DNA from: an uncultured Anaerolineales bacterium
GTDB lineage: Bacteria; Chloroflexota; Anaerolineae; UBA4142
NCBI GenBank assembly: GCA_903825565.1
Contig: CAIKBD010000268.1
Location: 1-32,151 of the forward strand
DNA length: 32,151 nt
Direction: 5' to 3'
The position numbers and the translations under genes are program-made. Shown in pieces: positions 4,578 to 31,730 of this stretch. Below the pieces are notes generated by a model. It searched no databases and had not been told where the DNA came from. It was given only the letters and a program-made list of their open reading frames with translations. Position 1 is the stretch's first letter. The number at the start of each line of letters is the position of its first letter.

Positions 4578-5578
4578 TTCAACAATTCCTGCAATTGTTC
4601 CGGCGAGCCGAGCGCGAGGATTTGCATCTGCGCGAGTAAAACCGTTTCGGCGTTCGGCGTGATGCGTGCGGCGGCATTCGGCATTTTGCACGCGAGCAAT
4701 GTGACGCCCACGCGTTCGGTCAGTTGCGCTTGCGCGAGCGTTTTGCCGACGAGCGGCGAACTCGGGGCGAGCGTGACTTGCTCGATCAACAATTCCTCGT
4801 TGCCGACGTGCGCGACCTCGTCGAGGAAATCGGCGACGGCGGGGCGCACGAGCGTCGTCACCATCCGGCGGCCGGCGATGCGGTACGGCGAGATGACCTG
4901 GTTCGCGCCAGCGCGCAGCAATTTCGGTTCCGATGCTTCGTAATTTGCGCGCGCGATGATTTGCAGATCAGCGCGCATCCCGCGGGCGGTCAGCACGATG
5001 AATACATTTTCCGCGTCCGAGTTGACCGCGACGATGAGCGCGCGCGCGTGTTCGATGCCGGCTTGTTTCAAGACCGTTTCGTCCGCCGCGTTGCCTTGAA
5101 GCGCAATGTGACCCAGATCGCGCAAGTGCGCGATGGCTTGCGCGTCCGGGTCAATCACGACGAACGGCATTTTTTCCGCGAGCAGGGTGTGGACGATGTG
5201 ACGTCCGACGCGCCCGTAACCGCAAACGATGGTGTGATTTTTCAATTGCTCCAACATGCGTTGCTCCCGTTGTCGTTCCAAGCGTTCACGCCATTCGCCG
5301 GACACGATCAAGTTCGTGACCATGCTCGCGGTGTAAAAGGTAATCGTCGCCGCCGACGCGATCAAGCCAATCGTAAACACGCGCCCCGCGGGCGAAAGTG
5401 TTTTGATTTCGCCAAAGCCGACCGTGCTGATCGTGATGACGGTCATGTACAGCGCATTGAGCATGTCCATCTCTTCGAGGATGGCAAAGCCGAGCGTGCC
5501 GGCACAGATAACGAGCGTCAGCGCGCCGAACGCGAGCCAGAAGCGATATGTGATTGAGGGGCGCGAATTGCTTTTCAT
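4565..5578 (-). CDS. Two-helix potassium channel with RCK (TrkA-N/TrkA-C) domain
   Basis: A 337-aa MthK-like channel subunit. A first membrane helix (about 13-34), a pore loop with selectivity filter TVGFGE (52-57) and a second helix (about 65-92) are followed by a cytoplasmic Rossmann RCK domain with the nucleotide loop GYGRVG (120-125) and a TrkA-C domain near the C-terminus. Such channels are tetrameric and gated by ligands on the RCK ring, mediating K+ flux across the cytoplasmic membrane. The filter reads GFGE instead of the classic GYGD, a known variant. I chose ATG 5578, 17 bp after the mutS stop, because the upstream extension lies inside mutS and lacks similarity to the family. It sits between mutS and mutL and overlaps mutL by 13 bp, so the three are probably co-transcribed. 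Confidence 0.88.
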   Translation of the reverse strand: MKSNSRPSITYRFWLAFGALTLVICAGTLGFAILEEMDMLNALYMTVITISTVGFGEIKTLSPAGRVFTIGLIASAATITFYTASMVTNLIVSGEWRERLERQREQRMLEQLKNHTIVCGYGRVGRHIVHTLLAEKMPFVVIDPDAQAIAHLRDLGHIALQGNAADETVLKQAGIEHARALIVAVNSDAENVFIVLTARGMRADLQIIARANYEASEPKLLRAGANQVISPYRIAGRRMVTTLVRPAVADFLDEVAHVGNEELLIEQVTLAPSSPLVGKTLAQAQLTERVGVTLLACKMPNAAARITPNAETVLLAQMQILALGSPEQLQELLKWTT

Positions 5579-5595
5579 AGGGTAATGATCCACGG

Positions 5596-8397
5596 CTACT
5601 CGACTACCTGACCCTCCGCCTTGATTTTGATCTGCAACACGTTCAACACATTCAACGCTTGCACCGGCGTCATGTTTGCAATGTCCGCGTCCGCAATTTG
5701 CCGCAACACCGCGCGCCACATTTCCGCGCGCGTGTCGTAAATCGCGCGGTCTTCGTGAACAACTGTGTTTGCGCTCTGAACACTGGACACTGAATACTGA
5801 TTACTGCCGACTGTTGACTGTTGACTGTCTACTGACGACTCTCGACTTTTCTCCAGCCCGCGCAACACTGCCTCCGCGCGCTCCACCACCCGCGCCGGCA
5901 AACCAGCGAGTTGCGCGACGTGAATCCCAAAACTTTTTTCCGCGCCGCCCGCAATCACCTGCCGCAAGAAAATCACCTCGTTCCCTTGCTCTTTGACCGC
6001 CATCGTAAAATTCTTGATCGCGTCGCTCTGCGCCTCAAGTTGCGTCAACTCGTGATAGTGTGTCGCAAACAACGTTTTCGCGCCGACGAGATTGTGAATC
6101 TCTTCCGCGATTGCCCACGCGAGCGAAATGCCATCATACGTCGAAGTGCCGCGCCCCACTTCATCGAGCACGATGAGCGAACGCGCCGTCGCGTGCCGCA
6201 AAATGTGACTCGTCTCGCTCATCTCCACGAGAAACGTCGAGCGACCTTGCGCAATGTCATCGCTTGCGCCGACGCGCGTGAAGATGCGATCCGTCAGCGC
6301 GATGCGCGCGGAACGTGCTGGCACGAAACTGCCGATTTGCGCCATCAACACGATGAGCGCGACCTGGCGCACGAACACACTTTTGCCCGACATGTTTGGG
6401 CCGGTGAGAATGATCACGCGTTGCGATTCGTTGTCGAGCCGCGCGTCGTTCGGCACGAATGGTTCGGCGGCGGGGTGCTGAAACCGCTCGACGACTGGAT
6501 GCCGCCCCTCGCAAATTTCGATCACCTCGCCGTCGTCCACCACCGGCTTGACGTAGCCGTGCCGCGCGGCGGCTTCGGCAAGCGCACCCAACGCGTCGAG
6601 TTGCGCGAGGATGCGCGCGGCGCGGTGCAAGCGCGCGGCGTGTTGCGCGACGGCGCGGCGCACTTGCGCGAACAACTCGTACTCCAAATCCTTGACCCGA
6701 TCCTGGGTCGCCAACAGGTGCGTCGCTTGCGCTTTGAGCTCGGGCGTGACGTACCGTTCGGCGTGCGAGATCGTCGCGCGGCGTTCGTAATTTTTCGGAA
6801 CGAGATGGGCGTCGCGGCGCGGCAGTTCGATGAAATAACCGAACACTTCATTGTAGCGTACGCGCAATGTTTTGATGCCGGTGCGTTGGCGTTCCTGCGT
6901 TTCGAGTTCGGCGAGCCAATCCTTGCCGTGCGTCGCGCTCGCGCGCAGTTCGTCGAGCGGCGCGGCGTAGCCGGGTTTGATCAGCCCGCCGTCTTTGATC
7001 AGAATGGGGGGATCATCTACGATTGCGCGATCAATCAACTCGTGCACGTCTTGCAACTCGTCGAGGTCGTCGTGTAATTTTTGCAACAGCAGAGACGCAA
7101 GATTTTGCGTCTCTGCAAGACGCGATTTTATTTTCGGCAACCGCATCAATGTGCGTTTCAATCCGATCAGATCGCGCGCGTTGGCGTTGCCAAAGCCGAT
7201 GCGTCCGACGAGTCGCTCGACATCGAACAACCCGTCGAGCAAGGCGCGCAGGTCGCCGCGCAAGAATGCGTCGCGATACAATTCGTCCACCGCATCAAGG
7301 CGCGCGCGAATGGCATCCAGATCGAGGAGCGGTTGCTGAATCCACCGTTTGAGCAACCGCGCGCCCATCGCTGTCAAGGTGTGATCGAGCACGCCGAACA
7401 ATGAGCGTGGAGAGCCGCCGCGCCGGGACGTTTCGCCGTAATCCTGCAACGCGGCGGTCAATTCCAAATTCCGCCGGGTCGCCGGGTCGAGTAGCATATA
7501 ATCCGCGAGTGAGTACGTCCACAAATGGTTGAGGTGGGCAAGCGCATGGGGCGGTTCGTGCGTGGGTTGGTTCGCGCGGAGATAGTGGAGCGCGAGGTGC
7601 GCGGCGATGATCGCGAGCGGCAACGTGTCGCACCCGAACGGGGCGAGTGTGGCGACGCCGAACTGCTCGCACAAGGCGCGCCGCGCTTCGAGTTCGTCGC
7701 ACGTGCGGTCTTCGACCGGTGAAATGCGCGCGGGGTGTAACGCGGTGAGCCGCGCGACAAATTCCGCATCGGCAGCAAGCGCGCGCGGCAAAACGATCTC
7801 GCTCGCCTGCACGCGTTGCAATTCGTCGCACAATTTTTGCGTCGCGTCCGCGTCTTCGATCTGTGTCGTTGCAAATTCGCCGGTCGAAATGTCAACGAGG
7901 GCGAGACCGAAGGCGAGAGGGCGAGTGGGGGAATGCGTGAGTGGGTGATTGTCTCTCCCCCTCTCCCTTTCTCCCATTCTCCCGCCCGCATCTCGAAAAA
8001 TCGCCGCCAAATAATTATCGCTCTTGGCGCGCAACAGCGCATCTTCGACGACCGTGCCGGGGGTGATGACGCGCACGACATCGCGCTGGACGAGGCGTTT
8101 CACCTTTTTCGGGTCTTCGAGTTGCTCGACGAGCGCGACCTTGTAACCCTTGTCAATCAGTTTGGCGATGTACGCTTGAACGTGATGGTGCGGCACGCCC
8201 GCCATCGGCAGGCGCGTGCCTTTGGCGAACGCGCGCGCGGTGAGCACAAGTTCGAGTTCGCGCGCGGCGATCTTGGCGTCGGCATCGAAGGTCTCGTAAA
8301 AATCGCCGAGCCGAAACAGTACGAGCGCGTCGGGAAAGCGCGCTTTGATGTGCCGATACTGGGCGAGCATCGGCGTCAGTTTTTTCTCGTCAGGCAT
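5596..8397 (-). CDS. mutS: DNA mismatch repair protein MutS
   Basis: A 933-aa mismatch-recognition ATPase. The mismatch-wedging motif is visible as GDFYETF (F33, E35). The C-terminal ATPase has Walker A GPNMSGKS (about 666-673), DDIAQGRSTFLVEM, Walker B DEVGRGTSTYDG (about 745) and ATHYHEL (about 782). It is longer than the usual 850-880 aa because low-complexity stretches are inserted in frame at about residues 136-160, 427-436 and 849-876, each matching a repeat family seen elsewhere in the window. I chose ATG 8397 because a TATAAT ends eight bases upstream, implying a leaderless mRNA; ATG 8406 is an alternative. It is followed by the K+ channel and mutL on the same strand. Confidence 0.95.
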   Translation of the reverse strand: MPDEKKLTPMLAQYRHIKARFPDALVLFRLGDFYETFDADAKIAARELELVLTARAFAKGTRLPMAGVPHHHVQAYIAKLIDKGYKVALVEQLEDPKKVKRLVQRDVVRVITPGTVVEDALLRAKSDNYLAAIFRDAGGRMGERERGRDNHPLTHSPTRPLAFGLALVDISTGEFATTQIEDADATQKLCDELQRVQASEIVLPRALAADAEFVARLTALHPARISPVEDRTCDELEARRALCEQFGVATLAPFGCDTLPLAIIAAHLALHYLRANQPTHEPPHALAHLNHLWTYSLADYMLLDPATRRNLELTAALQDYGETSRRGGSPRSLFGVLDHTLTAMGARLLKRWIQQPLLDLDAIRARLDAVDELYRDAFLRGDLRALLDGLFDVERLVGRIGFGNANARDLIGLKRTLMRLPKIKSRLAETQNLASLLLQKLHDDLDELQDVHELIDRAIVDDPPILIKDGGLIKPGYAAPLDELRASATHGKDWLAELETQERQRTGIKTLRVRYNEVFGYFIELPRRDAHLVPKNYERRATISHAERYVTPELKAQATHLLATQDRVKDLEYELFAQVRRAVAQHAARLHRAARILAQLDALGALAEAAARHGYVKPVVDDGEVIEICEGRHPVVERFQHPAAEPFVPNDARLDNESQRVIILTGPNMSGKSVFVRQVALIVLMAQIGSFVPARSARIALTDRIFTRVGASDDIAQGRSTFLVEMSETSHILRHATARSLIVLDEVGRGTSTYDGISLAWAIAEEIHNLVGAKTLFATHYHELTQLEAQSDAIKNFTMAVKEQGNEVIFLRQVIAGGAEKSFGIHVAQLAGLPARVVERAEAVLRGLEKSRESSVDSQQSTVGSNQYSVSSVQSANTVVHEDRAIYDTRAEMWRAVLRQIADADIANMTPVQALNVLNVLQIKIKAEGQVVE
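5765..5850. repeat. ACTGTTGACTG-type word repeat inside mutS
   Basis: Variations on (ACTG)TTGACTGTCGACT are repeated across this segment and read in frame in mutS as a Ser/Gln/Val-rich stretch. The same words flank the four-helix-bundle gene at 26771-26792 and 27191-27212. It falls in the poorly conserved region behind the ATPase domain. Confidence 0.7.
7089..7116. repeat. Perfect 12-bp inverted repeat in frame inside mutS
   Basis: GCAGAGACGCAA and TTGCGTCTCTGC flank a four-base spacer. This AGAGACGC...GCGTCTCT palindrome resembles a class of interspersed repeats familiar from other bacterial genomes. It is read in frame (about residues 427-436 of MutS). Confidence 0.75.
7912..7986. repeat. 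Purine/pyrimidine-rich word repeat inside mutS
   Basis: GAGAGGGCGAGTGGGGG on the left and CTCTCCCCCTCTCCC on the right form an imperfect inverted pair, read in frame as a Gly/Arg/Pro/Thr-rich insert (about residues 137-161) in MutS. It belongs to the same family as the hairpin at 22441-22510. Confidence 0.7.
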
Positions 8398-8404
8398 TGC
8401 GCGC

Positions 8405-8433
8405 ATTATAGCGAGATTGCGCGCACGCGGCAA
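8405..8433 (-). promoter_or_regulatory. Promoter of mutS, predicted leaderless
   Basis: On the minus strand TTGCCG (8433-8428), a 17-bp spacer and a perfect TATAAT (8410-8405). Initiation seven or so bases downstream falls at the mutS ATG (8397), leaving no room for a Shine-Dalgarno sequence. Confidence 0.6.
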
Positions 8434-9983: not shown

Positions 9984-11762
9984 ATGTCTCGTTTCAATCG
10001 TCTCGTTCTTTTTCTAGTTCTGGCAAGCGTGTTGATGTTGATCGCCGTGGCGTGCGCGCCTGCGCCGACGCCCGCGCCGACTGCCGCGCCGCCGACTGCC
10101 GCACCGAAACCTACCGATGCGCCCAAGCCAACCACCGCGCCCGTCGCAACCGCCGCACCCAAGCCCACTGACGCGCCCAAGCCGACGGAAGCGCCAAAAC
10201 CAACCGTCGCGCCGACCGCCGCACCCAAGCCCACTGATGCGCCCAAAGCCGCCGAACCGACGCGCGGTGGCATCGCCGTGATTGCAATTGACTCGGACCC
10301 TGAAACGCTGAACCTGGGTCTCACGACCGGCTATTCGTCCGGGGATGTTGCCTCGAAAATTTTTAACGGCTTGGTTTGGCTCGACGGCAACTATCAACCG
10401 CAACCGCAACTCGCCGAATCGTGGACGGTTTCCGCCGATGGCAAAGTCTACACGTTCAAACTTCGCAGTGGCGTGACATGGCACGACGGCAAGCCGTTTA
10501 CCAGCGCAGATGTCAAGTACTCGTACGACGAAATTTTGCTGAAACTGCACCCGCGCACGCGCACGCTCGCGCCGCGCCTCGACTCTGTCGCTGCGCCCGA
10601 CGCGCAAACCGTTGTGTTCACGCTCAAAGACGCGTACGCGCCGTTCATGATCCAGCAAACTGTGTTCGATGCGCCGATCCTGCCCAAGCATGTGTACGAC
10701 GGGCAAGGCGATGTGACGAAAAACCCGGCGAACGTCAAACCGATTGGCACAGGTCCCTTCAAGTTTGTCGAATGGAACAAGGGCGCGACGATCAAGCTCG
10801 CGCGCTATGACAACTATTTCGAAAAAGGCAAGCCGTACCTTGATGGCATTGTCTTCCAAATTATTCCGCAAGGCGCGAATCGTTCGACCGCGCTCGAAAC
10901 CGGCGAAGTGGATTTCGTCGTTGACTTTTATCTGCCCAAGACTGATGTCAAACGCCTCGAAGCCAACGCCAAGCTAACCGCCAAGCGCGGACAAGGCGCG
11001 CCGGCGATTGACTTTATGATGATGAACACGCGTACCAAGGCGCTCTCCACTGCCGAAGCGCGCCAAGCCGTGGCGCAGGCGATTGATCGCAAACGCGTCG
11101 TAGATCAATCCATGAACGGCATCGCGCGCGCGGCGCGCGGTCCATTCGGCGATGGCTTCAAATGGTTGCTCACGCCCGACGTGGATTACGCCAAAATGTA
11201 CCCGCTCGATGTCGCCAAAGCCAAAGCGGCGCTCGACAAAGCCGGCGTCACCGCGGGCACGGACGGGATGCGCGGCAAGTTGCGCCTCGTTTACGATTCG
11301 GCACGCCCGCAATTTGTCGCGGCGGCGCAAATCATCAAGGAAAATTTGAAAGACCTTGGCTTTGACGTGGACTTGCAAGCGCTCGAACGCTCCGTGTTGA
11401 TCCAAAAAGTTTTCCTCGATTGGGAATATGATCTCACCCTCCAATCGTTCGTATCGTCCGGCGATCCGTCCATCGGCTATCATCGCCTCTACATCACGAC
11501 GCCGACCAAGGCGCAGTTCACGAACCAGACCGGTTACACCAATCCCAAGGTGGACGAACTGCTCGCCAAAGCCGCGACCGCGCCCGATGTGAAAGCGCGC
11601 GCAGCGGCGTATGCCGAAGCGCAAGTGATTCTTGCCAAAGACTTGCCCAGTCTCGTGCTGTTCGACGAGGAAGGCGTGGATTTTGCGAGTAAGAAATTAA
11701 GCGGCGTGTGGGCGGGGATTGACTCACGCGACCGCTGGGATCTCGTCTGGATGCCCAAGTAG
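9984..11762 (+). CDS. ABC transporter substrate-binding lipoprotein (peptide/nickel family 5)
   Basis: A 592-aa solute receptor of the DppA/OppA family. It starts with a lipoprotein signal peptide; the lipobox ends in A-V-A-C with lipidated Cys24, anchoring it outside the cytoplasmic membrane. Residues about 25-92 are a flexible linker of repeated PTDAPKPT/PTAAPKPT units, typical of Chloroflexota binding proteins. The binding domain follows, with GLVWLDGNYQPQPQLAESW and GVTWHDGKPFTSADVKYSYDE-like motifs of family 5. It is the first gene of a transporter operon and has a strong Shine-Dalgarno. It probably delivers short peptides to the permeases next door; the exact ligand is not predictable. 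A 16-bp perfect hairpin sits directly behind its stop. Confidence 0.93.
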   Translation: MSRFNRLVLFLVLASVLMLIAVACAPAPTPAPTAAPPTAAPKPTDAPKPTTAPVATAAPKPTDAPKPTEAPKPTVAPTAAPKPTDAPKAAEPTRGGIAVIAIDSDPETLNLGLTTGYSSGDVASKIFNGLVWLDGNYQPQPQLAESWTVSADGKVYTFKLRSGVTWHDGKPFTSADVKYSYDEILLKLHPRTRTLAPRLDSVAAPDAQTVVFTLKDAYAPFMIQQTVFDAPILPKHVYDGQGDVTKNPANVKPIGTGPFKFVEWNKGATIKLARYDNYFEKGKPYLDGIVFQIIPQGANRSTALETGEVDFVVDFYLPKTDVKRLEANAKLTAKRGQGAPAIDFMMMNTRTKALSTAEARQAVAQAIDRKRVVDQSMNGIARAARGPFGDGFKWLLTPDVDYAKMYPLDVAKAKAALDKAGVTAGTDGMRGKLRLVYDSARPQFVAAAQIIKENLKDLGFDVDLQALERSVLIQKVFLDWEYDLTLQSFVSSGDPSIGYHRLYITTPTKAQFTNQTGYTNPKVDELLAKAATAPDVKARAAAYAEAQVILAKDLPSLVLFDEEGVDFASKKLSGVWAGIDSRDRWDLVWMPK

Positions 11763-11763
11763 A

Positions 11764-11834
11764 GATTGGAGATTGGAAATTGGAAGTTGGAGCGCGAGTT
11801 CCAACTTCCAATTTCTAACTTCCAACTTCCAATC
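11764..11834 (+). repeat. Intercistronic hairpin of TTGGAAGTTGGA words
   Basis: Bases 11776-11791 (GAAATTGGAAGTTGGA) are perfectly complementary to 11800-11815 with an 8-base loop, and further TTGGA/TCCAA words flank them. It starts right behind the binding-protein stop and reaches the permease start, leaving that gene without a visible Shine-Dalgarno. In other transporter operons such stem-loops protect the binding-protein mRNA; that role here is inference. Confidence 0.8.
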
Positions 11835-11836
11835 CA

Positions 11837-13617: not shown

Positions 13618-14612
13618 ACGAAATTATTTTGGAGGTGCGCCAGCTCGTCACCGAAATTCATCAGCGGCGCGGTTGGTTGCGCGTCGTAGACGATGTGTCG
13701 TTCAATGTGCGGCGCGGCGAAATTGTCGGACTCGTCGGCGAATCGGGATGCGGCAAAAGCATGACCGCGTTTTCGTTGATGCAATTGTTTCCGACGCCGG
13801 CGGCGCGCGTCACCAGCGGACAAATTCAGTTTGAGGATCGCGATCTCGCCAAACTCACGGCGGACGAAATGCGGCGCGTGCGCGGCGCGCAAATCGCAAT
13901 GATCTTTCAAGACCCCGCGACGTTTCTCGATCCGTTGATGACGCTGGGCAATCAAATCGCCGAGCCACTGCGCGCGCACAATTTTGCGGGCAACGCAACC
14001 GCGCGCACGCGCGAACTCGTCGCGCAGATGGGCTTGCCCGATCCGGAATTGATGGTGCGCCGCTATCCGCATCAAGTTAGCGGCGGACAAAAGCAACGCG
14101 CGCTCATCGCGAGTGCGATGGCGTGCGCGCCGAAATTGTTGATTGCGGACGAGCCGACGACTGCGCTCGATGTGACCGTGCAAGCGCAGATTCTCGATTT
14201 GATGCGCGATCTGCGCGACCAAACCGGCGCGGCGATTTTGCTCATCACGCACGACCTGGGAGTGATCGCCGAAATGTGCGACCGCGTTTACGTGATGTAC
14301 GCCGGCAAAATCGTCGAGCACAACACGACGCGCGAATTGTTCCGTGCGCCGCGTCATCCGTACACGCAAGGTCTGCTTCGCAGTACGGTCTCGCTCGAAT
14401 CCGCGAGCGCGGAACTGTTTGCGATTCCTGGGACGGTTCCGAATTTGAACGAACTGCCAACGGGTTGTCGTTTCGCGCCGCGCTGTCCGATTGCGAACGC
14501 GCAATGCAAACAAGAACCGCCATTCGTTGCGAACGATGCGAGCGCAGTCGCGTGTTGGAATGTCGAACGCGCGGCGGCGAGTGATATTTGGAAATTGGAA
14601 ATTGGAAGTTAG
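13614..14612 (+). CDS. Peptide ABC transporter ATP-binding protein, DppD type
   Basis: A 332-aa ATPase that powers peptide uptake. Walker A is GESGCGKS, the ABC signature VSGGQKQR, Walker B LLIADEPTTALD, and the H-loop LLITHDLG. The C-terminal oligopeptide/dipeptide domain has LPTGCRFAPRCPIA..C, where cysteines of this family bind an Fe-S cluster in some members. I chose the GTG at 13614 because it overlaps the DppC stop as GTGA; the longer open frame upstream runs through dppC and is not coding. The last residues (IWKLEIGS) and the stop are supplied by a TTGGAAATTGGAAG repeat, so the repeat appears to have altered the C-terminus. Confidence 0.93.
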   Translation: MNEIILEVRQLVTEIHQRRGWLRVVDDVSFNVRRGEIVGLVGESGCGKSMTAFSLMQLFPTPAARVTSGQIQFEDRDLAKLTADEMRRVRGAQIAMIFQDPATFLDPLMTLGNQIAEPLRAHNFAGNATARTRELVAQMGLPDPELMVRRYPHQVSGGQKQRALIASAMACAPKLLIADEPTTALDVTVQAQILDLMRDLRDQTGAAILLITHDLGVIAEMCDRVYVMYAGKIVEHNTTRELFRAPRHPYTQGLLRSTVSLESASAELFAIPGTVPNLNELPTGCRFAPRCPIANAQCKQEPPFVANDASAVACWNVERAAASDIWKLEIGS

Positions 14613-14665
14613 AGGTTGGAAGTTGGACGACTATTTCCAACATCTAACCTCCAACTTCCAACTTC
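14588..14665 (+). repeat. Second TTGGAAGTTGGA-word inverted repeat
   Basis: Bases 14602-14627 and 14636-14661 are inverted copies matching at 23 of 26 positions, in the same word family as 11764-11834. It overlaps the end of the DppD gene and reaches to about 20 bp before the DppF start. It gives a strong RNA stem between the two ATPase genes. Confidence 0.8.
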
Positions 14666-14686
14666 TATTCTCTGTAACGAGATACA

Positions 14687-24971: not shown

Positions 24972-26768
24972 ATGACGCCAATTGAAACAACCATCACCAA
25001 ACTGCGCGAACGCTTCGCCGGCGCAATCGGCGACATTTACGAGTTTCGCGGCGAGACGACGGTGACGATCCCGCGCGCCGCCTTGCTTGACCTTGCGCGT
25101 TTTTTACGAACCGATCCCGCGCTCCGTTTTGACATGCTGACGGATGTGACCGCCCTCGATTGGTTGCCGCGCGAACCGCGCTTTGACGTTTTGTACGCCT
25201 TCCTCTCGCTGTCGCACAAGACGCGCGTGCGCGTGCGCGTGCAACTGGCGAGCGGCGACTTGCACGTGCCCTCTCTGACTGCCGTTTACCCGGGCGCGAA
25301 TTTTTACGAGCGCGAAGTGTACGATCTCTTTGGCATCACCTTTTCCGGGCATCCGTTTTTGCATCGGCTCTTGTCGCCCGATTACGAAACGAGTCACCCA
25401 CTCCGCAAAGATCACCCGCTGGGCTATGAGCCAGTCGAGTTCACGCACACGTACGATGAAATTCAGCCGGATAAACCGGGTGCGGTGCCGCCGCCCAAGC
25501 CGCGCCGGTTGATCGGCAGTATTGGCGGAACGCCGCAAGAAATTCCGCTCACGCTGTCCGATCCCGCCACACCCTGGTCGGGCACGCAAGCCGAAACGTT
25601 GCTGATCAATATGGGCCCGCATCATCCCTCGACGCACGGCGTGTTGCGCGTCGCGCTCGAAGTGGACGGCGAAAAGATTGTCAACGCGATGCCGGACATT
25701 GGCTATCTGCACACCGGCATCGAAAAAACGGCGGAGTACAAAACGTACCTCAAAGCCGTGCCGTTATTTGATCGGATGGATTATCTGGGCACGTTCTTCA
25801 ACAACCTTGCGTACGTCATGGCGGTTGAAAAGTTGATGGATGTGGACGTGCCGGAGCGGGCGCAACTTGTTCGCGTAATCCTGTCCGAACTTCAGCGCAT
25901 CACCTCGCATCTGATTGCCGTCGGCTCACAAGCGATGGACATTGGCGCAGTGACGGTGATGACATACGCGTTCCGCGAACGCGAAACGGCGCTCGATATT
26001 TTTGAAGCGGTCGCCGGCGCGCGGATGATGACTTCGTATTTTCGCTTTGGCGGACTCGCACTCGATTTGCCGGCGGGCTTTTCCGATTCGGTGCGCGCGT
26101 TCCTCAAAATGTTGCCGCCACGTCTCAAAGAGTACGAAGACCTGCTCAACAAAAATCCGATCTGGCTCGAACGGACGCGCGGCATTGCCGAGTACACCGC
26201 CGAGGACGCCCTCGCCTACAGCGTGACGGGCCCGATGTTACGCGCGGCGGGCGTGAATTGGGATTTGCGGAAAGCGTTTCCGTACCTGGGTTACGAGCAG
26301 TACGATTTCGAGGTGCCGGTCAGCACGCGCAGTAAAGCGGATGTCTTGGAATGTTATTACATCCGCATGGAAGAAATGCGGCAGAGCATTCGGATCATCG
26401 AGCAGGCATTGCCCAAGCTGGAAAAAACCAACGGGCAGCCATACGTCACGCGCAATCGCAAGGTCGCGCCGCCGCCCAAAGCGGAACTTGCCACCTCGAT
26501 GGAGAGTTTGATTCACCATTTCAAACTGTGGACGGAAGGGATCAAGCCCCCAGTCGGTTTGGTGTATGCGCCGATTGAGTCGCCGCGCGGCGAGTTGGGT
26601 TTTCTGATTTCGAGCGATGGCTCGCGCAATCCGCATCGCGTGCGCGTGCGCACACCATCGTTCGCCAACTTGCAAACCTTGCCGCTCCTTTCCAAGAATT
26701 ATTACATCGCCGATCTCGTTGGGATCATTGCGATGACGGATATTATCCTGGGAGACGTGGACAGATAA
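24972..26768 (+). CDS. nuoCD: NADH-quinone oxidoreductase subunit C/D fusion
   Basis: A 598-aa fused subunit. Residues about 1-165 are NuoC (30-kDa type, with YPGANFYEREVYDLFGI and LRKDHPLGYEPVEF-like signature). A proline-rich joint (about 170-200) leads into NuoD from about residue 208 (NMGPHHPSTHGVLR), which forms the quinone pocket with NuoB. NuoD ends normally in DIILGDVDR. NuoCD fusions occur in several bacterial groups. The start at 24972 follows nuoB by 46 bp. nuoE would normally follow; here a four-helix-bundle gene does. Confidence 0.95.
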   Translation: MTPIETTITKLRERFAGAIGDIYEFRGETTVTIPRAALLDLARFLRTDPALRFDMLTDVTALDWLPREPRFDVLYAFLSLSHKTRVRVRVQLASGDLHVPSLTAVYPGANFYEREVYDLFGITFSGHPFLHRLLSPDYETSHPLRKDHPLGYEPVEFTHTYDEIQPDKPGAVPPPKPRRLIGSIGGTPQEIPLTLSDPATPWSGTQAETLLINMGPHHPSTHGVLRVALEVDGEKIVNAMPDIGYLHTGIEKTAEYKTYLKAVPLFDRMDYLGTFFNNLAYVMAVEKLMDVDVPERAQLVRVILSELQRITSHLIAVGSQAMDIGAVTVMTYAFRERETALDIFEAVAGARMMTSYFRFGGLALDLPAGFSDSVRAFLKMLPPRLKEYEDLLNKNPIWLERTRGIAEYTAEDALAYSVTGPMLRAAGVNWDLRKAFPYLGYEQYDFEVPVSTRSKADVLECYYIRMEEMRQSIRIIEQALPKLEKTNGQPYVTRNRKVAPPPKAELATSMESLIHHFKLWTEGIKPPVGLVYAPIESPRGELGFLISSDGSRNPHRVRVRTPSFANLQTLPLLSKNYYIADLVGIIAMTDIILGDVDR

Positions 26769-26770
26769 AA

Positions 26771-26792
26771 GTCGACAGTAGACAGACGACAG
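26771..26792 (+). repeat. Left inverted repeat of the four-helix cassette
   Basis: GTCGACAGTAG-ACAGACGACAG is an inverted copy, at 19 of 22 positions, of the sequence at 27191-27212. As RNA, 20 of 22 positions pair when one G-U is counted. It begins two bases after the nuoCD stop. Confidence 0.8.
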
Positions 26793-26813
26793 ACAAAACC
26801 ATCGGAGTTGACA

Positions 26814-27188
26814 ATGCACAATTACAAGGAACTCAAGGTTTGGCAAAAGGCGATGGATTTAGTTGTCGAAATTTATTCGTTGACGCGCACGTTTCCGAAA
26901 GACGAATTGTTTGGGCTGACGAATCAGTTGCGGCGCGCGGCAGTTTCAATTGCGCTGAACATTGCCGAGGGCGCTGGGTGTGAGAGTGATGTCGAGTTTG
27001 CGCGATTCTTGGACATTGCGTTGCGTTCGACGTACGAAACGGTAACTGCGTTGCAAATCGCGACGCGATTGAAATATAGCAAACAAGAAATCACCGACCC
27101 ACTTATTGCTAACGCGGAAGAAGTTGCGCGCATGACAACGGGGCTGATTCGCAAGTTTGCTCCGAGTCGCAAATATTTGCAAAAGTAA
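26814..27188 (+). CDS. Four-helix-bundle protein, 23S rRNA intervening-sequence type
   Basis: A 124-aa helical protein. The start NYKELKVWQKAMDLVVEIY and the centre QLRRAAVSIALNIAEGAG are diagnostic of the S23/IVP family, first seen in intervening sequences of 23S rRNA and also as accessory proteins of diversity-generating retroelements. The biochemical function is not known; pentameric nucleic-acid-binding forms have been described for relatives. It sits where nuoE is expected and is bounded by inverted repeats, so it looks like a mobile or passenger cassette rather than a complex I part. ATG 26814 is preferred to TTG 26808. No reverse transcriptase or rRNA is nearby. Confidence 0.88.
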   Translation: MHNYKELKVWQKAMDLVVEIYSLTRTFPKDELFGLTNQLRRAAVSIALNIAEGAGCESDVEFARFLDIALRSTYETVTALQIATRLKYSKQEITDPLIANAEEVARMTTGLIRKFAPSRKYLQK

Positions 27189-27190
27189 AT

Positions 27191-27212
27191 CTGTCGACTG
27201 TTGACTGTCGAC
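27191..27212 (+). repeat. Right inverted repeat of the four-helix cassette
   Basis: CTGTCGACTGT-TGACTGTCGAC is the inverse partner of 26771-26792. It starts two bases after the stop of the four-helix gene and lies 17 bp before the nuoF start. The same words occur inside mutS at 5800-5850. Confidence 0.8.
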
Positions 27213-27229
27213 TCTAAATCTGGTGTTGC

Positions 27230-28507
27230 ATGGAACATCTAATCCTTCGAGACCTTGACATTCAGAATATCAAAAACATCGCTGTGTATGAAGAACACGG
27301 CGGCTATCAGGCGTTCCGCAAAGCGGTGAAAGAGATGACGCCCGATCAGGTGACTGACGCGGTCAAGCAATCGGGTTTGCGCGGACGCGGCGGCGCAGGT
27401 TTTCCCGCGGGCGTCAAATGGAGTTTCCTGCCCAAGGGCGTGTTCCCGCGTTACCTCGTTGTGAATGCGGACGAATCGGAACCTGGGACGTTCAAAGACC
27501 GCCAAATGATGGAACGCAATCCGCATCAACTCATCGAGGGCATTGCGATTGCTTCGTACGCGATTCAGTGCAACCAAGCGTTCATCTACATTCGCGGCGA
27601 ATTTCCGTACGCGGCGGAATGTTTGGAGCAAGCGATTGCCGATGCCGAGTCGCGGGGTTACGTCGGCAAAAATATTTTCGGCACCGATTATCATTTGCAG
27701 ATCGTCGTGCATCGCGGCGCAGGCGCGTATATCTGCGGCGAAGAAACTGCCCTGCTCGAATCCATCGAAGGCAAACTGGGACAGCCGCGCGTCAAACCGC
27801 CGTTCCCTGCGGCGGTCGGACTTTACAACAAGCCGACTGTCATCAACAACGTCGAAACGCTCATCAACGTGCCACTCATCATCGAGCGCGGCGCACAGTG
27901 GTACGCGAGTTTGGGCACGCCGAAATCCACGGGCCCCAAAGTGTTTTGCCTGAGCGGTCACGTCAATCGTCCTGGGAATTACGAAGGCGAGTTTGGCAAG
28001 ATGACGTTCCGCGAATTGATTTACGATTTGGGCGGCGGCATTCGCAACGGCAAAAAGTTGAAAGGCATCTTGCCCGCCGGCGCGAGTGGTCCGATGGTCA
28101 GCCCGCTCGTCAACGAAGCAGTGCTCGACGTGAAACTCGATTTCGAATCGCTTGCGCCGTTCGGCTCGCTCCTGGGTTCGGCGTCGGTGATTGTGCTCGA
28201 CGAAGACACGTGCGTCGTGTGGGCGGCGAAAAAAATGTTGCACTTTTTCAAGAACGAATCGTGCGGCAAATGCACGCCGTGTCGCGAGGGGACGTACTGG
28301 CTCTGGCGTCTGCTCGAACGCATTGACGCGGGCGAGGGCACAATGGCGGATATTGATCTACTGACGAGCGTCGCGACGCAAATGCAAGGGCGCACGCTGT
28401 GTCCGCTCGGCGAGTTCGCCACGTCGCCCGTCCTCGGCACGGTGAAATTGTTCCGCGAAGAGTACGAACGGCATGTGAAAGAGCGCGGGTGCTGGGCGAA
28501 GAAATAA
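27230..28507 (+). CDS. nuoF: NADH-quinone oxidoreductase subunit F
   Basis: A 425-aa NADH dehydrogenase subunit that oxidises NADH and carries FMN and cluster N3. The FMN/NADH glycine-rich motif GRGGAGFP is at 52-59, GAGAYICGEETAL near 163-175 is the second nucleotide motif, and N3 ligands are C345, C348, C351 and about C391. Length and ends are normal. The partner NuoE, needed for cluster N1a in standard complex I, is not encoded beside it. No strong Shine-Dalgarno is visible because the inverted repeat of the upstream cassette lies just before the start. Confidence 0.95.
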   Translation: MEHLILRDLDIQNIKNIAVYEEHGGYQAFRKAVKEMTPDQVTDAVKQSGLRGRGGAGFPAGVKWSFLPKGVFPRYLVVNADESEPGTFKDRQMMERNPHQLIEGIAIASYAIQCNQAFIYIRGEFPYAAECLEQAIADAESRGYVGKNIFGTDYHLQIVVHRGAGAYICGEETALLESIEGKLGQPRVKPPFPAAVGLYNKPTVINNVETLINVPLIIERGAQWYASLGTPKSTGPKVFCLSGHVNRPGNYEGEFGKMTFRELIYDLGGGIRNGKKLKGILPAGASGPMVSPLVNEAVLDVKLDFESLAPFGSLLGSASVIVLDEDTCVVWAAKKMLHFFKNESCGKCTPCREGTYWLWRLLERIDAGEGTMADIDLLTSVATQMQGRTLCPLGEFATSPVLGTVKLFREEYERHVKERGCWAKK

Positions 28508-28556
28508 GTGGTGCGTGGTTAGTGGATAGTGGGTCCACGACAAATAGAAAGAGAGT

Positions 28557-28772
28557 ATGCCAATGACTACTACAACTCTCGATGAAGGTCACCTTAAGGA
28601 ATTGTTCAAGCAGGCGATGCTCGAACTGCTCGTCGAACGCAAAGATATTTTCTACGATTTGTTTGCCGAGGTCATCGAAGATGCGGCGCTGGTGAACGCG
28701 ATTCGTGAAGGCGAAGCCGACGAGTCGGTGAGTCGCTCGGAGATTTTCGAGATTCTCGGGAGCGTGGCGTGA
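28557..28772 (+). CDS. Antitoxin-like small protein of a RelE-type pair
   Basis: A 71-aa acidic protein with a helical N-terminus (ELFKQAMLELLVERKDIFYDLFAEVIED) and a C-terminal segment SVSRSEIFEIL that resembles the toxin-binding tail of small antitoxins. I do not recognise a named DNA-binding fold. Its stop overlaps the GTG start of the toxin gene (GTGA), the typical arrangement of type II toxin-antitoxin pairs. The start is either 28557 or the second ATG at 28563; GAAAGAGAG lies just upstream. It lies between nuoF and nuoG. Confidence 0.75.
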   Translation: MPMTTTTLDEGHLKELFKQAMLELLVERKDIFYDLFAEVIEDAALVNAIREGEADESVSRSEIFEILGSVA

Positions 28773-29035
28773 AAATCGAGTTCAAGCGTAGTTTCGCCAA
28801 AGACTTGCGGAAAATCCGTGACGCTCATTTGCACAGGCAAGTCAAAGAAACGCTTGAACTGATAGAGCGCGTTCAGTCGCTTCAAGAAGTTAGCGACATC
28901 AAGAAACTCAAAGGCGGTGACCGTTACTATCGCATTCGCATCGGTGATTACCGCCTCGGTCTGATTCTCGACACCGATACAGTTATCCTGGTTCGCTTTT
29001 TACACCGCAAAGACCTCTACCGATATTTTCCGTAG
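28769..29035 (+). CDS. RelE/ParE-family toxin
   Basis: An 88-aa basic protein with the RelE-type layout: an N-terminal EFKRSFAKDLRKI helix, a central KKLKGGDRYYRIRIGDYRLGLI core and a C-terminal FLHRKDLYRYFP. The basic residues and tyrosines of this core and tail (RIRIGDYR, HRKDLYR) are where RelE mRNA interferases have their active site, so it may cleave mRNA on the ribosome; ParE-like gyrase inhibition is less likely. It starts at GTG 28769, overlapping the antitoxin stop. It is embedded in the nuo operon, 43 bp before nuoG. Confidence 0.85.
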   Translation: MKIEFKRSFAKDLRKIRDAHLHRQVKETLELIERVQSLQEVSDIKKLKGGDRYYRIRIGDYRLGLILDTDTVILVRFLHRKDLYRYFP

Positions 29036-29078
29036 AAAAACTATTCGCAAATCATAAATCATAATTCGGAAATCGAAA

Positions 29079-31730
29079 ATGCCAAATGTAATTATTGATA
29101 ACAAACCAGTGTCCGTGCCGAATGGCACACTCGTCGTCGAAGCCGCCAAGCAAGCGGGCGTTGACATCCCCGTTTTTTGCTATCATCCGAAATTGCAACC
29201 GGTCGGCATGTGCCGCATGTGCCTCGTCGAAGTGGGTACGCCGAAACGCGGCAAGGACGGACAAATTGAAACGGACGCGAACGGCAAGCCGGTGATCGCG
29301 TGGATGCCCAAACCGCAAGCGGCATGCACGACGGTCGTCTCGGAAGGGATGGCGGTGCGGACGGATACCGCGCAAGTTGCGGATGCGCGCCGCGCGATTG
29401 TCGAATTTTTGCTGACGAGTCATCCGCTTGATTGCCCGATTTGCGACAAGGGCGGCGAGTGTCCTCTGCAAAACTTGACGATGGCGTACGGGCCCGGCAC
29501 GTCGCGTTTTCCGGTCGAATCGAAATTTCACAACGAGAAACGCGTGCCGCTCGGCGATTTGATTATGCTCGACCGCGAACGCTGTATCCAATGCTCGCGG
29601 TGCGTGCGTTTTCAAAGCGAAATCGCGGACGATCCGGTGCTGGGTTTTCAGGCGCGCGGGCGCGGCTTGGAAATCACCACGCTGTCCGATCCGCCGTTCG
29701 ATTCCAAGTTCAGCGGCAACACGATTGATATTTGTCCGGTCGGCGCGCTCACCTCGCGCGACTTTCGCCTGAGCGCGCGCACCTGGGAACTGCGCGATTA
29801 TCCCAGCGTCTGCGCGCACTGCTCCGTCGGGTGCAATTTGTTGATCGGCGAACGCGATCACGCGATCAAGCGCATCGTTCCGCGCGAGAACGAAGCGGTC
29901 AACGAAATTTGGCTGTGCGACAAGGGGCGTTTCGCGCATCACTTTGCGACAGCGCCGGGGCGTTTGACCCAGCCGCTCATTCGGCGCAACGGCAAACTCG
30001 AAACGGCAAGTTGGAACGAGGCGCTCGATCTCGTCGCGTCGAAATTCGCCGAGATCAAAAAACAAAACGGCGCGCACGCGCTTGGCGGGTTTGGCGGCGA
30101 CCGCGCGGCGAACGAAGATTTATATCTGTTCCAAAAATTATTCCGTCACGTAATCGAATCGCCGAACTTGGAACATCGCGTCGGCTGGAGCGCGACGAAC
30201 GTCGGCGCGGATTTGGTGCGGCTGTACGGCGCGGGCGTTGGTACGAACCTGGGTTCGCTCGACAAAAACGTAACCGTGCTGGTGATTGGCGCAGACCCGG
30301 AAGAAGAGCAACCGGTCTTGCGCTTGCGGCTCACGCGGAGCGCGAAAAATTTCGGCGCGCAGTTGATCGTGGCGAACGGGCGCGTGACGAAACTGGCAAA
30401 GCACGCGAAGCAAGCGGTGATTTATCGGCACGGGGGCGAGGCGGCGTTCCTCCTGGGAATGACGCGCGCGATTTTGGACGAGCATCTCGAAAACCAGGAG
30501 TTTGCGGCGACGCGGATTACGAACTTGAGCGCGTTCGCCAAATCGCTTGAAGCGTACTCGGTCGAAAAATGCGCCGAATTATCCGGCGTGAGCGTCGAGG
30601 CGATCCGCGGCGCGGCGCGTGCGTTCGCGCAAGCGCCGAACGGGTTGATCGTGTACGGTCGCGAGGCAATGTTCGCGCAACAAAGCGATCTTGCCGTGGC
30701 GTCCGGCATCGCCACCTTGTTGCTGATCACCGGGCATGTGGGCCGCGCGAACAATGGTCTCGTCGCGCTGTATCCGCACAATAATTCGACCGGCGCGCTG
30801 GATTTCGGTTTGATGCCGGATCACGGCTTGGGGCGGGCGCAACTCGGCGTCAAGGGTTTGGCGGCGCGCGAGCTGGCAACGGGCAAGGTGCGCGCGCTCT
30901 ACGTGATGGCGTGCGATCCGGCGGCGGATGGCGCGTTCGTCAAGCCGGAATTTCTCGTCGCGCAAGATTTGTTCCTGACCGATACGGCACAACTGGCGGA
31001 TGTGGTTTTGCCGGCGCAAGCGTTCGCGGAGCGTGAAGGCACGTTCACGAACACGGAACGGCGCGTGCAACTATTCCGCGCGGCGCTAAAACCGATGGGC
31101 GAAACAAAACCCGATTGGTGGATCATCGCGGAAATTTCGAAACGGCTGGGGAGCGGTTGGAATTATGGATCCGCGCGCGAGATTATGGATGAGATCGCCG
31201 CAAAGGTTCCGCTGTACGCCGGGATGAATTACGCGACGCTCGCGGAAAATGTCCAACTGCCGCGTCCGCGCGCGGGGCAAGGCAATGCGAGTCATGCGCC
31301 GACCGAGATCGCAATGGGTGATCTCGAAAATATTTCGAGCGGCAAAACGTGGGCGAGTGTGGCGGAGAGCGATGCGAGCGTCAAGTTCGAGTTGATGTGG
31401 AACGAGCCGAAGGGTCAGGGGGCAGGGGCCAGGGGTCAGTATACGCTTGCTGTGGCGCGTGTGATTTATGATCGCGGCACGCTCGTGAGCCAAACGCCGA
31501 TTGTGCAACCGCGCGTGCCGGCGCTGTACCTCGAAATCAATTCCCAGGATGCGCAAGCGCTTGGCATCGTGCGCGGCGCGCGCGTGCGTGTAACATTCGA
31601 GGCGCGCGTGATCGAAGCGCCGGCGAACGTGGATGGGCGGGTGCCGCCGGGCGTTGTGTTGATGCCGCAAAATCTCGGTGGCGCGTTGGCGTTGCCGCTG
31701 GGCGCGCGCGTGGAAATCGAAAAGGTGTAA
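29079..31730 (+). CDS. nuoG: NADH-quinone oxidoreductase subunit G
   Basis: An 883-aa subunit passing electrons from NuoF towards NuoI. All N-terminal cluster ligands are present: N1b C34, C45, C48, C83; N5 H115, C119, C122, C128; N4 C169, C172, C175, C219; and the off-path N7 C245, C248, C252, C280, which only some bacteria keep. A molybdopterin-oxidoreductase-like domain follows from about residue 300, ending with a molydopterin-binding-like C-terminal domain after about 790. A GGGTCAGGGGGCAGGGG-type repeat is read in frame at about 777-788 in the joint between these. nuoI follows directly; nuoH is not between them. Confidence 0.95.
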   Translation: MPNVIIDNKPVSVPNGTLVVEAAKQAGVDIPVFCYHPKLQPVGMCRMCLVEVGTPKRGKDGQIETDANGKPVIAWMPKPQAACTTVVSEGMAVRTDTAQVADARRAIVEFLLTSHPLDCPICDKGGECPLQNLTMAYGPGTSRFPVESKFHNEKRVPLGDLIMLDRERCIQCSRCVRFQSEIADDPVLGFQARGRGLEITTLSDPPFDSKFSGNTIDICPVGALTSRDFRLSARTWELRDYPSVCAHCSVGCNLLIGERDHAIKRIVPRENEAVNEIWLCDKGRFAHHFATAPGRLTQPLIRRNGKLETASWNEALDLVASKFAEIKKQNGAHALGGFGGDRAANEDLYLFQKLFRHVIESPNLEHRVGWSATNVGADLVRLYGAGVGTNLGSLDKNVTVLVIGADPEEEQPVLRLRLTRSAKNFGAQLIVANGRVTKLAKHAKQAVIYRHGGEAAFLLGMTRAILDEHLENQEFAATRITNLSAFAKSLEAYSVEKCAELSGVSVEAIRGAARAFAQAPNGLIVYGREAMFAQQSDLAVASGIATLLLITGHVGRANNGLVALYPHNNSTGALDFGLMPDHGLGRAQLGVKGLAARELATGKVRALYVMACDPAADGAFVKPEFLVAQDLFLTDTAQLADVVLPAQAFAEREGTFTNTERRVQLFRAALKPMGETKPDWWIIAEISKRLGSGWNYGSAREIMDEIAAKVPLYAGMNYATLAENVQLPRPRAGQGNASHAPTEIAMGDLENISSGKTWASVAESDASVKFELMWNEPKGQGAGARGQYTLAVARVIYDRGTLVSQTPIVQPRVPALYLEINSQDAQALGIVRGARVRVTFEARVIEAPANVDGRVPPGVVLMPQNLGGALALPLGARVEIEKV
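31411..31441. repeat. GGGGCCAGGGGTCAG-type repeat inside nuoG
   Basis: Short words of the type GGGTCAG/GGGGCAG are repeated here and read in frame in NuoG as a Gly/Gln/Ala/Arg-rich joint (about residues 778-788). It is like the other in-frame repeat inserts of this window. Confidence 0.6.

Follow-up and report, generated by a model that had tools for sequence, protein, structure and literature searches.

How does a gene of the protein family known from 23S rRNA intervening sequences (IVSs) come to lie in the middle of a nuo operon, between two inverted repeats? We address this question for a stretch of 32,151 nucleotides from an uncultured Anaerolineales bacterium, hereafter the window. An initial annotation, made from the letters alone, had placed a four-helix-bundle gene inside the operon, framed by 22-bp inverted repeats two bases after each neighbouring stop codon. 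It had proposed that these form a long RNA stem with the gene in the loop, in the manner of the rRNA elements that carry this family. Our analyses indicate that the feature is very probably an IVS-type element with heptamer arms, here lodged in an mRNA.

Anatomy of the cassette

The four-helix-bundle gene does lie within the nuo operon, between nuoCD and nuoF, both of which are identified by domain and profile matches (Table 1). The repeats are present as 24-nt arms, each beginning one base past a stop codon, i.e. the TAA of nuoCD (26766-26768) and the TAA of the four-helix-bundle gene (27186-27188), so that the earlier description agrees with ours to within a base. Of the 24 positions in the two arms, AGTCGACAGTAGACAGACGACAGA and TCTGTCGACTGTTGACTGTCGACT, 21 are complementary (22 with one G-U pair included), and both arms are tandem arrays of a 7-nt unit, a feature absent from the initial annotation. 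The local complementarity score of the cassette flanks is 15, a value that none of 2000 flank shuffles reached. With up to three mismatches allowed, the arm pattern is matched seven times in the window, whereas 100 shuffled sequences averaged 0.00 matches. When 26740-27245 is folded as RNA, the minimum-energy structure pairs both arms around the ORF (z -2.65; 1 of 100 shuffles folded as well), which bears out the suggestion that the gene occupies the loop of a stem. The element has no transposase of its own, and the only family to which it has a match is PF05635 (E 6.2e-38; 129.7 bits, cut-off 33.8).

Two further observations concern the same window. Within the nuo operon, a ParE/RelE-like toxin ORF, accompanied by a short ORF, separates nuoF from nuoG (28540-29035), and heptamer-like short stretches lie by this pair at 28507-28534 and 29041-29088. 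At the contig end (1-153) a 54-bp unit is repeated 2.8 times, with 98% identity.

Table 1. Positions of the cassette, its host genes and gene-less heptamer arrays in the window
Feature	Position	Strand	Description
Whole element	26770-27213	+	444 nt; stem with ORF in loop (arm alignment, RNA fold)
5' arm	26770-26793	+	Tandem heptamers AGTCGAC AGTAGAC AGACGAC AGA; sequence AGTCGACAGTAGACAGACGACAGA
3' arm	27190-27213	+	TCTGTCG ACTGTTG ACTGTCG ACT, inverted copy of the 5' arm; sequence TCTGTCGACTGTTGACTGTCGACT
Four-helix-bundle / S23 / 23S_rRNA_IVP ORF	26814-27188	+	124 aa, PF05635
nuoCD	24972-26768	+	Upstream host-operon gene; domain/profile matches
nuoF	27230-28507	+	Downstream host-operon gene; domain/profile matches
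Gene-less heptamer hairpin	11757-11835		Unit TTGGAAA, between two genes
Gene-less heptamer hairpin	14581-14669		Unit TTGGAAA, between two genes
Gene-less array	5770-5847	-	5803-5847: unit GTCAACA, the cassette-arm unit

Inverted heptamer arms across the PF05635 family

Arms were scored with a strict scheme, which replaced an earlier score with cheap gaps that had yielded long meaningless alignments in coding flanks. In this genome and 19 relatives, 65 of 85 PF05635 genes reach a strict score of 14, a score that is also reached by 5 of 195 control ORFs of this genome and by 1.65% of mismatched flank pairs. The five passing controls are the window gene itself, an IS200-like gene, an integrase-type transposase (by eye), a cobT-like gene (DBI_PRT) and one unnamed ORF. 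Together, the shuffles and the control ORFs exclude chance as the origin of the nuo-cassette arms.

The arms are not confined to this lineage. A GTDB-wide scan yielded 80 loci, 54 of which score at least 11 and 47 at least 14 (mismatched pairs, 3.1% and 1.0%). These loci, with phylum labels assigned from record titles, span at least Bacteroidota, Cyanobacteria, Acidobacteriota, Alpha- and Betaproteobacteria, Planctomycetota and Spirochaetota, and are also found in Omnitrophota, Gemmatimonadota, Nitrospirota, one CPR genome and one archaeal Methanophagales genome. Isolate genomes and complete plasmids are among them, e.g. Nostoc edaphicum pNe_5 and Anabaena sp. 90 pANA02, complete cyanobacterial plasmids on which the gene lies between cas6 and cas4. 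In a further set, 64 of 97 loci score at least 11 (19/29, 25/29, 5/11 and 15/28 in its subsets). The period of the repeat is sharply defined in these 64 armed loci, with an identity of 0.72 at lag 7 versus 0.23-0.29 at lags 4-6 and 8-11.

The 97-locus set overlaps the GTDB-wide set, and the family total was therefore taken from the de-duplicated collection only, from which four ORFs at contig ends were dropped and loci fetched for other purposes were left out. It holds 262 distinct PF05635 genes. Matched inverted arms are found around 191 of them at a score of at least 11 (1.9% of mismatched flank pairs and 1.9% of shuffled flanks) and around 149 at a score of at least 14 (0.6% and 0%). Among the 149 loci that pass the stricter cut the best-fitting unit is 7 nt long in 118, 8 in 28 and of another length in three, and the median arm is 28 nt. 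The expectation that the repeats should be conserved around homologous genes thus holds for their kind, as matched inverted heptamer arms, and fails for their letters.

The stem is usual rather than universal, given that 71 of the 262 genes are without arms at the lower cut and that one locus has arms in direct orientation. The latter (L473, Pseudanabaena galeata pPg_01) carries long AAAGCTA/AAAGCCA arrays on both sides of a gene that again lies between cas6 and cas4. Phage records gave no match to the gene. Matches were found on 13 IMG/VR contigs, and 11 of these 13 score at least 11, with longer flanks than in the other sets and no mismatch control of their own. At an unarmed locus from Candidatus Kuenenia (L262) a CRISPR array (Rfam DR7, 4145-5350) lies downstream of the four-helix-bundle gene.

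Other copies and gene-less arrays in the host genome

A profile search of the assembly returned 17 PF05635 matches, 16 of them above the cut-off, and by a lenient score matched inverted arms surround 15 of the 17. The heptamer differs from pair to pair, e.g. GTTTCAG, AAAAGCT, ATTGCGT and GATTTAG. The two unarmed exceptions (L012 and L017) have ORFs that apparently overrun the true end or are broken, and L012 also scores once the flank is taken from the end of the domain. Other copies of the repeat, which the initial annotation had suggested looking for, do exist: the cassette-arm unit recurs elsewhere in the genome, e.g. without a gene at 5803-5847. The array that includes this stretch overlaps the 3' part of a long minus-strand ORF (5596-8433).

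Within 633 kb of this genome we counted 142 arrays with a period of 7 or 8, some of them background. These include 27 inverted pairs. The loop is 0-60 nt long in 15 of the pairs, and the window cassette is alone in having a loop of 251-600 nt. The gene-less arrays of this genome resemble its own cassettes: 42.9% of 112, a set that includes some background arrays, match the arms of the genome's own 16 cassettes, compared with a mean of 14.9% and a maximum of 24.1% for the arms of 16 cassettes from other genomes (30 draws). Period-7/8 arrays are also denser in genomes that bear PF05635, with 20.6 per 100 kb in ten such genomes and 3.7 in ten without (Mann-Whitney p 3.6e-4), a comparison confounded by kinship, as all ten bearers belong to one class and three of the ten non-bearers belong to it too. 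Lags 5, 10 and 11 do not rise in the bearers.

Concerted arms, selection and orientation

Comparing elements that occupy the same site in different genomes reveals how the arms evolve. In 73 of 81 same-site pairs, which are mutually dependent, and at 12 of 15 sites, the arms within a locus are more alike than are arms compared between orthologous loci. In the largest same-site group (10 genomes) the units are as unlike as TAGTCGGA, GTGCGATA and GTAGCAG. Arms that are alike within a locus and diverged between orthologues imply that pairing or exchange between the arms is kept while the letters turn over. Either selection on the stem or template switching within the hairpin would produce this concert. 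The protein is under purifying selection, with a dN/dS of 0.05-0.115 in 9 of 12 pairs of relatives, the other three being saturated in dS.

The orientation of the elements was read with a codon-usage test. The upstream neighbour is co-directional at 82 of 82 resolved loci, or 49 of 49 resolved sites. Around control genes the upstream neighbour is co-directional in 269 of 309 resolved cases, so that this result taken alone is modest evidence (P about 0.001 for 49/49). The stronger point is that 44 sites are (+,+), 4 are (+,-) and none is (-,-), since blind insertion would yield (+,+) and (-,-) sites in equal numbers. A test based on the longest ORF, which had called 15 of 85 upstream neighbours antisense, was rejected; long antisense ORFs abound, and at L001, L002 and L012 a reading by eye disagrees with it. 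At L002 (gene 1489-1851) the cassette lies inside a methyltransferase-like ORF, the frame of which is open through the entire element.

The nuoD-nuoF junction and empty sites

Relatives that lack the cassette, another thing the initial annotation had proposed to seek, exist both at the nuo junction and at two other sites. We surveyed 21 NuoD loci. The cassette is present at six, with AGTNNAC units in this genome (G000), G007 and G010 and with ACAGANN units in G016, G017 and G018, the four-helix-bundle gene thus being kept between nuoD and nuoF in five relatives. A third unit builds hairpins without a gene at this junction in G006 and G001; the spacer of G013 is hairpin-like, and the junctions of G012, G011 and G014 are short or empty. 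In G004 a short stretch resembles the outcome of a deletion through a palindromic GTCGAC, and G009 (L107) has a different palindromic repeat that begins CGTCATTGCGAGC. In G003 (L100) a DNA methyltransferase-like ORF (by eye) takes the position after nuoD, and in G005 the junction breaks off in a repeat following a start that resembles the 5' arm. Five of the 21 loci have no junction reading as such: no end was found at L114, a false end was taken at L101 and L113, and another gene lies at the junction of L115 and L116.

The best case for mobility comes from a different type of copy. Two elements at unrelated sites of one genome, G015 (L141 and L143), are 88% identical over 551 nt, with 91% protein identity; the shared stretch includes both arms and stops at their outer edges. 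A third copy of this type is found in G013 (L136). The L143 site, a peptidase-MogA junction, is empty in G013, where nine bases separate stop from start, and is without the cassette in G014, G016, G017 and G018; in the window genome it holds a gene-less hairpin of a different heptamer. For L141, the same five relatives (G013, G014, G016, G017 and G018) have an empty site, and its arm provides the stop codon of an altered upstream gene in G015. No target duplication was seen at the two sites, compared with diverged empty sites. Most of the orthologues at the nuo site may share one old insertion, which is why mobility is shown best for this type and not for the nuo copy.

Arms and proteins also travel together on a wider scale. 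Across different sites arm similarity tracks protein similarity (rho 0.217; 73 elements, 2547 pairs), and none of 2000 permutations was as high, the highest being 0.143. Arms align at a score of at least 12 in 38% of pairs with a protein similarity above 0.7 and in less than 1% of those below 0.35. From these comparisons arm, gene and arm can be seen to move as a unit, one that occurs at many unrelated, mostly intergenic sites. Five near-identical gene copies in Calothrix 7103 (L371-L375) lie in a unit of about 1.84 kb with a CTGCCCT heptamer array near one end. We rejected them as young armed elements; they are passengers of this 1.84-kb unit, behind a transposase-like gene (by eye).

Copies in rRNA

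The initial annotation had raised the possibility of an rRNA element that moved into an mRNA. This direction finds no support, as no rRNA was present in the flanks of the 99 sources scanned, and there was no Rfam match in the window. A search for a true 23S rRNA IVS in Spirochaetota gave only a copy in a 23S-5S spacer, with an early in-frame stop. This degenerate copy (L416) is armed with AAGTNAC units and lies between a 23S rRNA at 1-631 and a 5S rRNA at 1169-1276. With no rRNA in the flanks of the 99 sources and one spacer copy, the rRNA members look like a minority of a family that mostly resides elsewhere, and most of the PF05635 elements sampled here are, judging from their flanks, outside rRNA.

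Discussion

Taken as a whole, the cassette is likely to be a small mobile IVS-type element in which inverted arms of tandem heptamers surround a single PF05635 gene. We envisage that the arms pair in the nuo transcript, as they do in rRNA IVSs. RNase III would probably then cut the paired arms, going by the rRNA precedent, and cutting would free a short mRNA and sever the nuo transcript at the nuoD-nuoF boundary. By this analogy we regard processing of the RNA stem as an evenly balanced proposition. We hold recognition of the arms by the protein to be equally finely poised: the Avd-homologous protein may bind the heptamers of the element that encodes it, either paired or single-stranded, and may thereby aid their spread or persistence. 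Given that the element has no recombinase, the strand chemistry would fall to an enzyme acting in trans, or to replication slippage or template switching.

We tentatively extend this idea, with somewhat less than even confidence, to the heptameric intergenic repeats of prokaryotes in general. PF05635 proteins may create, spread or maintain such repeats (TAACTGA, the Xanthomonas GGGAATC and similar units) by way of structure and a seven-nucleotide spacing and not of fixed letters; every subfamily would have a unit of its own, and the relationship would resemble that of RAYTs to REPINs. The IVSs of 23S rRNA would then be copies that landed in rRNA.

Several other explanations deserve to be weighed. 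That this is an ordinary operon gene with repeats around it by chance can hardly be entertained: the five relatives retain the gene at the nuoD-nuoF junction, but chance is excluded by the control ORFs, the 262-gene count and the flank shuffles, and empty sites occur at the nuo junction as well as at the L141 and L143 sites. It is also unlikely, though considerably less so, that heptamer hairpins are an independent, general intergenic repeat and that PF05635 genes insert into their loops or become trapped there. Short-looped hairpins that lack a gene abound (15 of the 27 pairs above), they occur with another unit at the nuoD-nuoF junction of G006 and G001, and this genome has one at the peptidase-MogA junction where G015 has a cassette; as arrays without a gene occur, arms could predate the gene at some sites. 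Against this, the arms travel with the gene, both in the L141/L143 pair and in the arm-protein correlation, array density is near background in genomes without PF05635, and the arrays of this genome fit its own cassettes far better than those of others.

The element may instead be moved by the machinery of others. Hairpin ends and a lack of target duplication are features that fit HUH transposition. The element has such ends and no duplication was seen at the two sites above; the arms could be terminal repeats for a Y1/HUH transposase (IS200/RAYT-type) acting in trans, with the gene as a passenger or accessory in a REPIN-RAYT-like system. Y1_Tnp matches number 2-7 per genome in all ten bearers and 0-1 in the ten genomes without PF05635, but kinship explains these counts equally well, the ten bearers being of one class and seven of the ten others outside it. 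REP hairpins are sequence-specific, whereas the arm sequence here differs at every locus, and we find this account rather doubtful. It seems to us decidedly improbable that a reverse transcriptase, with the Avd-like protein as its partner, copies the element by way of RNA. The strict co-orientation with transcription would suit such copying, as would the homology between PF05635 and Avd (a weak NF033474 match; excerpts of PMC10053308) and the presence in this genome of one reverse transcriptase gene plus a second, fragmentary one. However, RVT_1 is absent from three of the ten bearing genomes, each at least 98% complete, so that a reverse transcriptase is not required in general, and the reverse transcriptase of this genome best matches group II-type models, below the cut-off.

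If a small mobile element with its own heptamer arms is the correct reading, rRNA IVSs, heptamer repeats and genes annotated as 'four helix bundle protein' are apparently one element, studied in lines of work that, in the excerpts of the literature used here, do not refer to one another. A large protein family thereby gains a testable function, the heptamer repeats gain a candidate maker, and the long-open origin of 23S rRNA intervening sequences becomes testable. A period fixed at seven, with letters that are specific to the locus and arms that stay alike, would furthermore be an unusual form of sequence evolution.

Comparison with known systems

In REPIN-RAYT systems a gene is flanked by inverted short repeats, and many gene-less hairpins share its repeat vocabulary. 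The present elements are similar in that gene-less repeats share sequence with those that flank the gene (42.9% vs 14.9%). They differ in that PF05635, the only domain of the cassette gene, is not a Y1/HUH transposase, and in that the repeat letters change between loci. Unlike insertion sequences, the element is without a transposase of its own.

The protein family is homologous to the Avd four-helix bundle of diversity-generating retroelements (DGRs), according to excerpts of PMC10053308. The cassette protein scores 20.6 bits with the Avd model NF033474 (cut-off 80). It thus differs from the Avd of DGRs in falling below the equivalog cut-off and in having no reverse transcriptase as a neighbour; RVT_1 has no match on the window contig (contig 268), and the genome's RVT_1 matches lie on contigs 228 and 232. 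The best solved relative of the protein is XCC0516 (PDB 2GSC, E 1.2e-21), an entry with five chains. Elsewhere in the genome of the cassette (L230, 1294-2716) a reverse transcriptase lies by a formylglycine-type gene and an Avd-like ORF (by eye), a possible DGR; the best NCBIfam model for this reverse transcriptase is a group II RT, below its cut-off.

Published heptamer repeats are, like the cassette arms, intergenic, tandem and often imperfect (excerpts of PMC4679880 and PMC4692102). No carrier gene is named in these excerpts for the TAACTGA heptamers of Beggiatoaceae (PMC4679880) or for GGGAATC in Xanthomonas and GGGGA(C/T)T in Nostoc (PMC4692102). For Xanthomonas the latter source, as excerpted, gives 70 and 75 cases of two convergent (inverted) arrays and finds no general association of the heptamers with mobile elements. 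One of our loci (L251) has TCAGTTA arms, the reverse complement of the Beggiatoaceae unit, and GGG-type units, which may be compared with the Xanthomonas and Nostoc heptamers, form the arms of L318, L322 and L291. In the titles, abstracts and excerpts of openly licensed PMC papers that our searches covered, no paper joins PF05635 genes outside rRNA with heptamer arms.

The closest known counterpart is the IVS of Coxiella burnetii, whose published anatomy equals that of the nuo cassette, in keeping with the likeness to 23S rRNA intervening sequences that had been proposed at the outset. As described in excerpts of PMC4990558, it lies in helix 45 of 23S rRNA and measures 428-444 nt; RNase III cleaves its stem of 28 bp, the loop holds an S23 ORF, and the 5' region contains tandem GACAGAT heptamers that vary in number among strains. 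Insertions in the rRNA of CPR bacteria carry the PF05635 family too (PMC11270868, in excerpt). The Coxiella S23p is thought to be unmade and decaying in the same account (PMC4990558), which contrasts with the dN/dS of 0.05-0.115 among relatives here, and the host differs as well, being the nuo mRNA and not a 23S rRNA gene. As far as that description goes, the two nevertheless share a single PF05635/S23 ORF, looped out by a stem of 24-28 bp, their size (428-444 vs 444 nt), tandem heptamers in an arm and an ORF in the sense of the host transcript, and the ACAGANN units at the nuo junctions of G016-G018 come close to the Coxiella GACAGAT itself.
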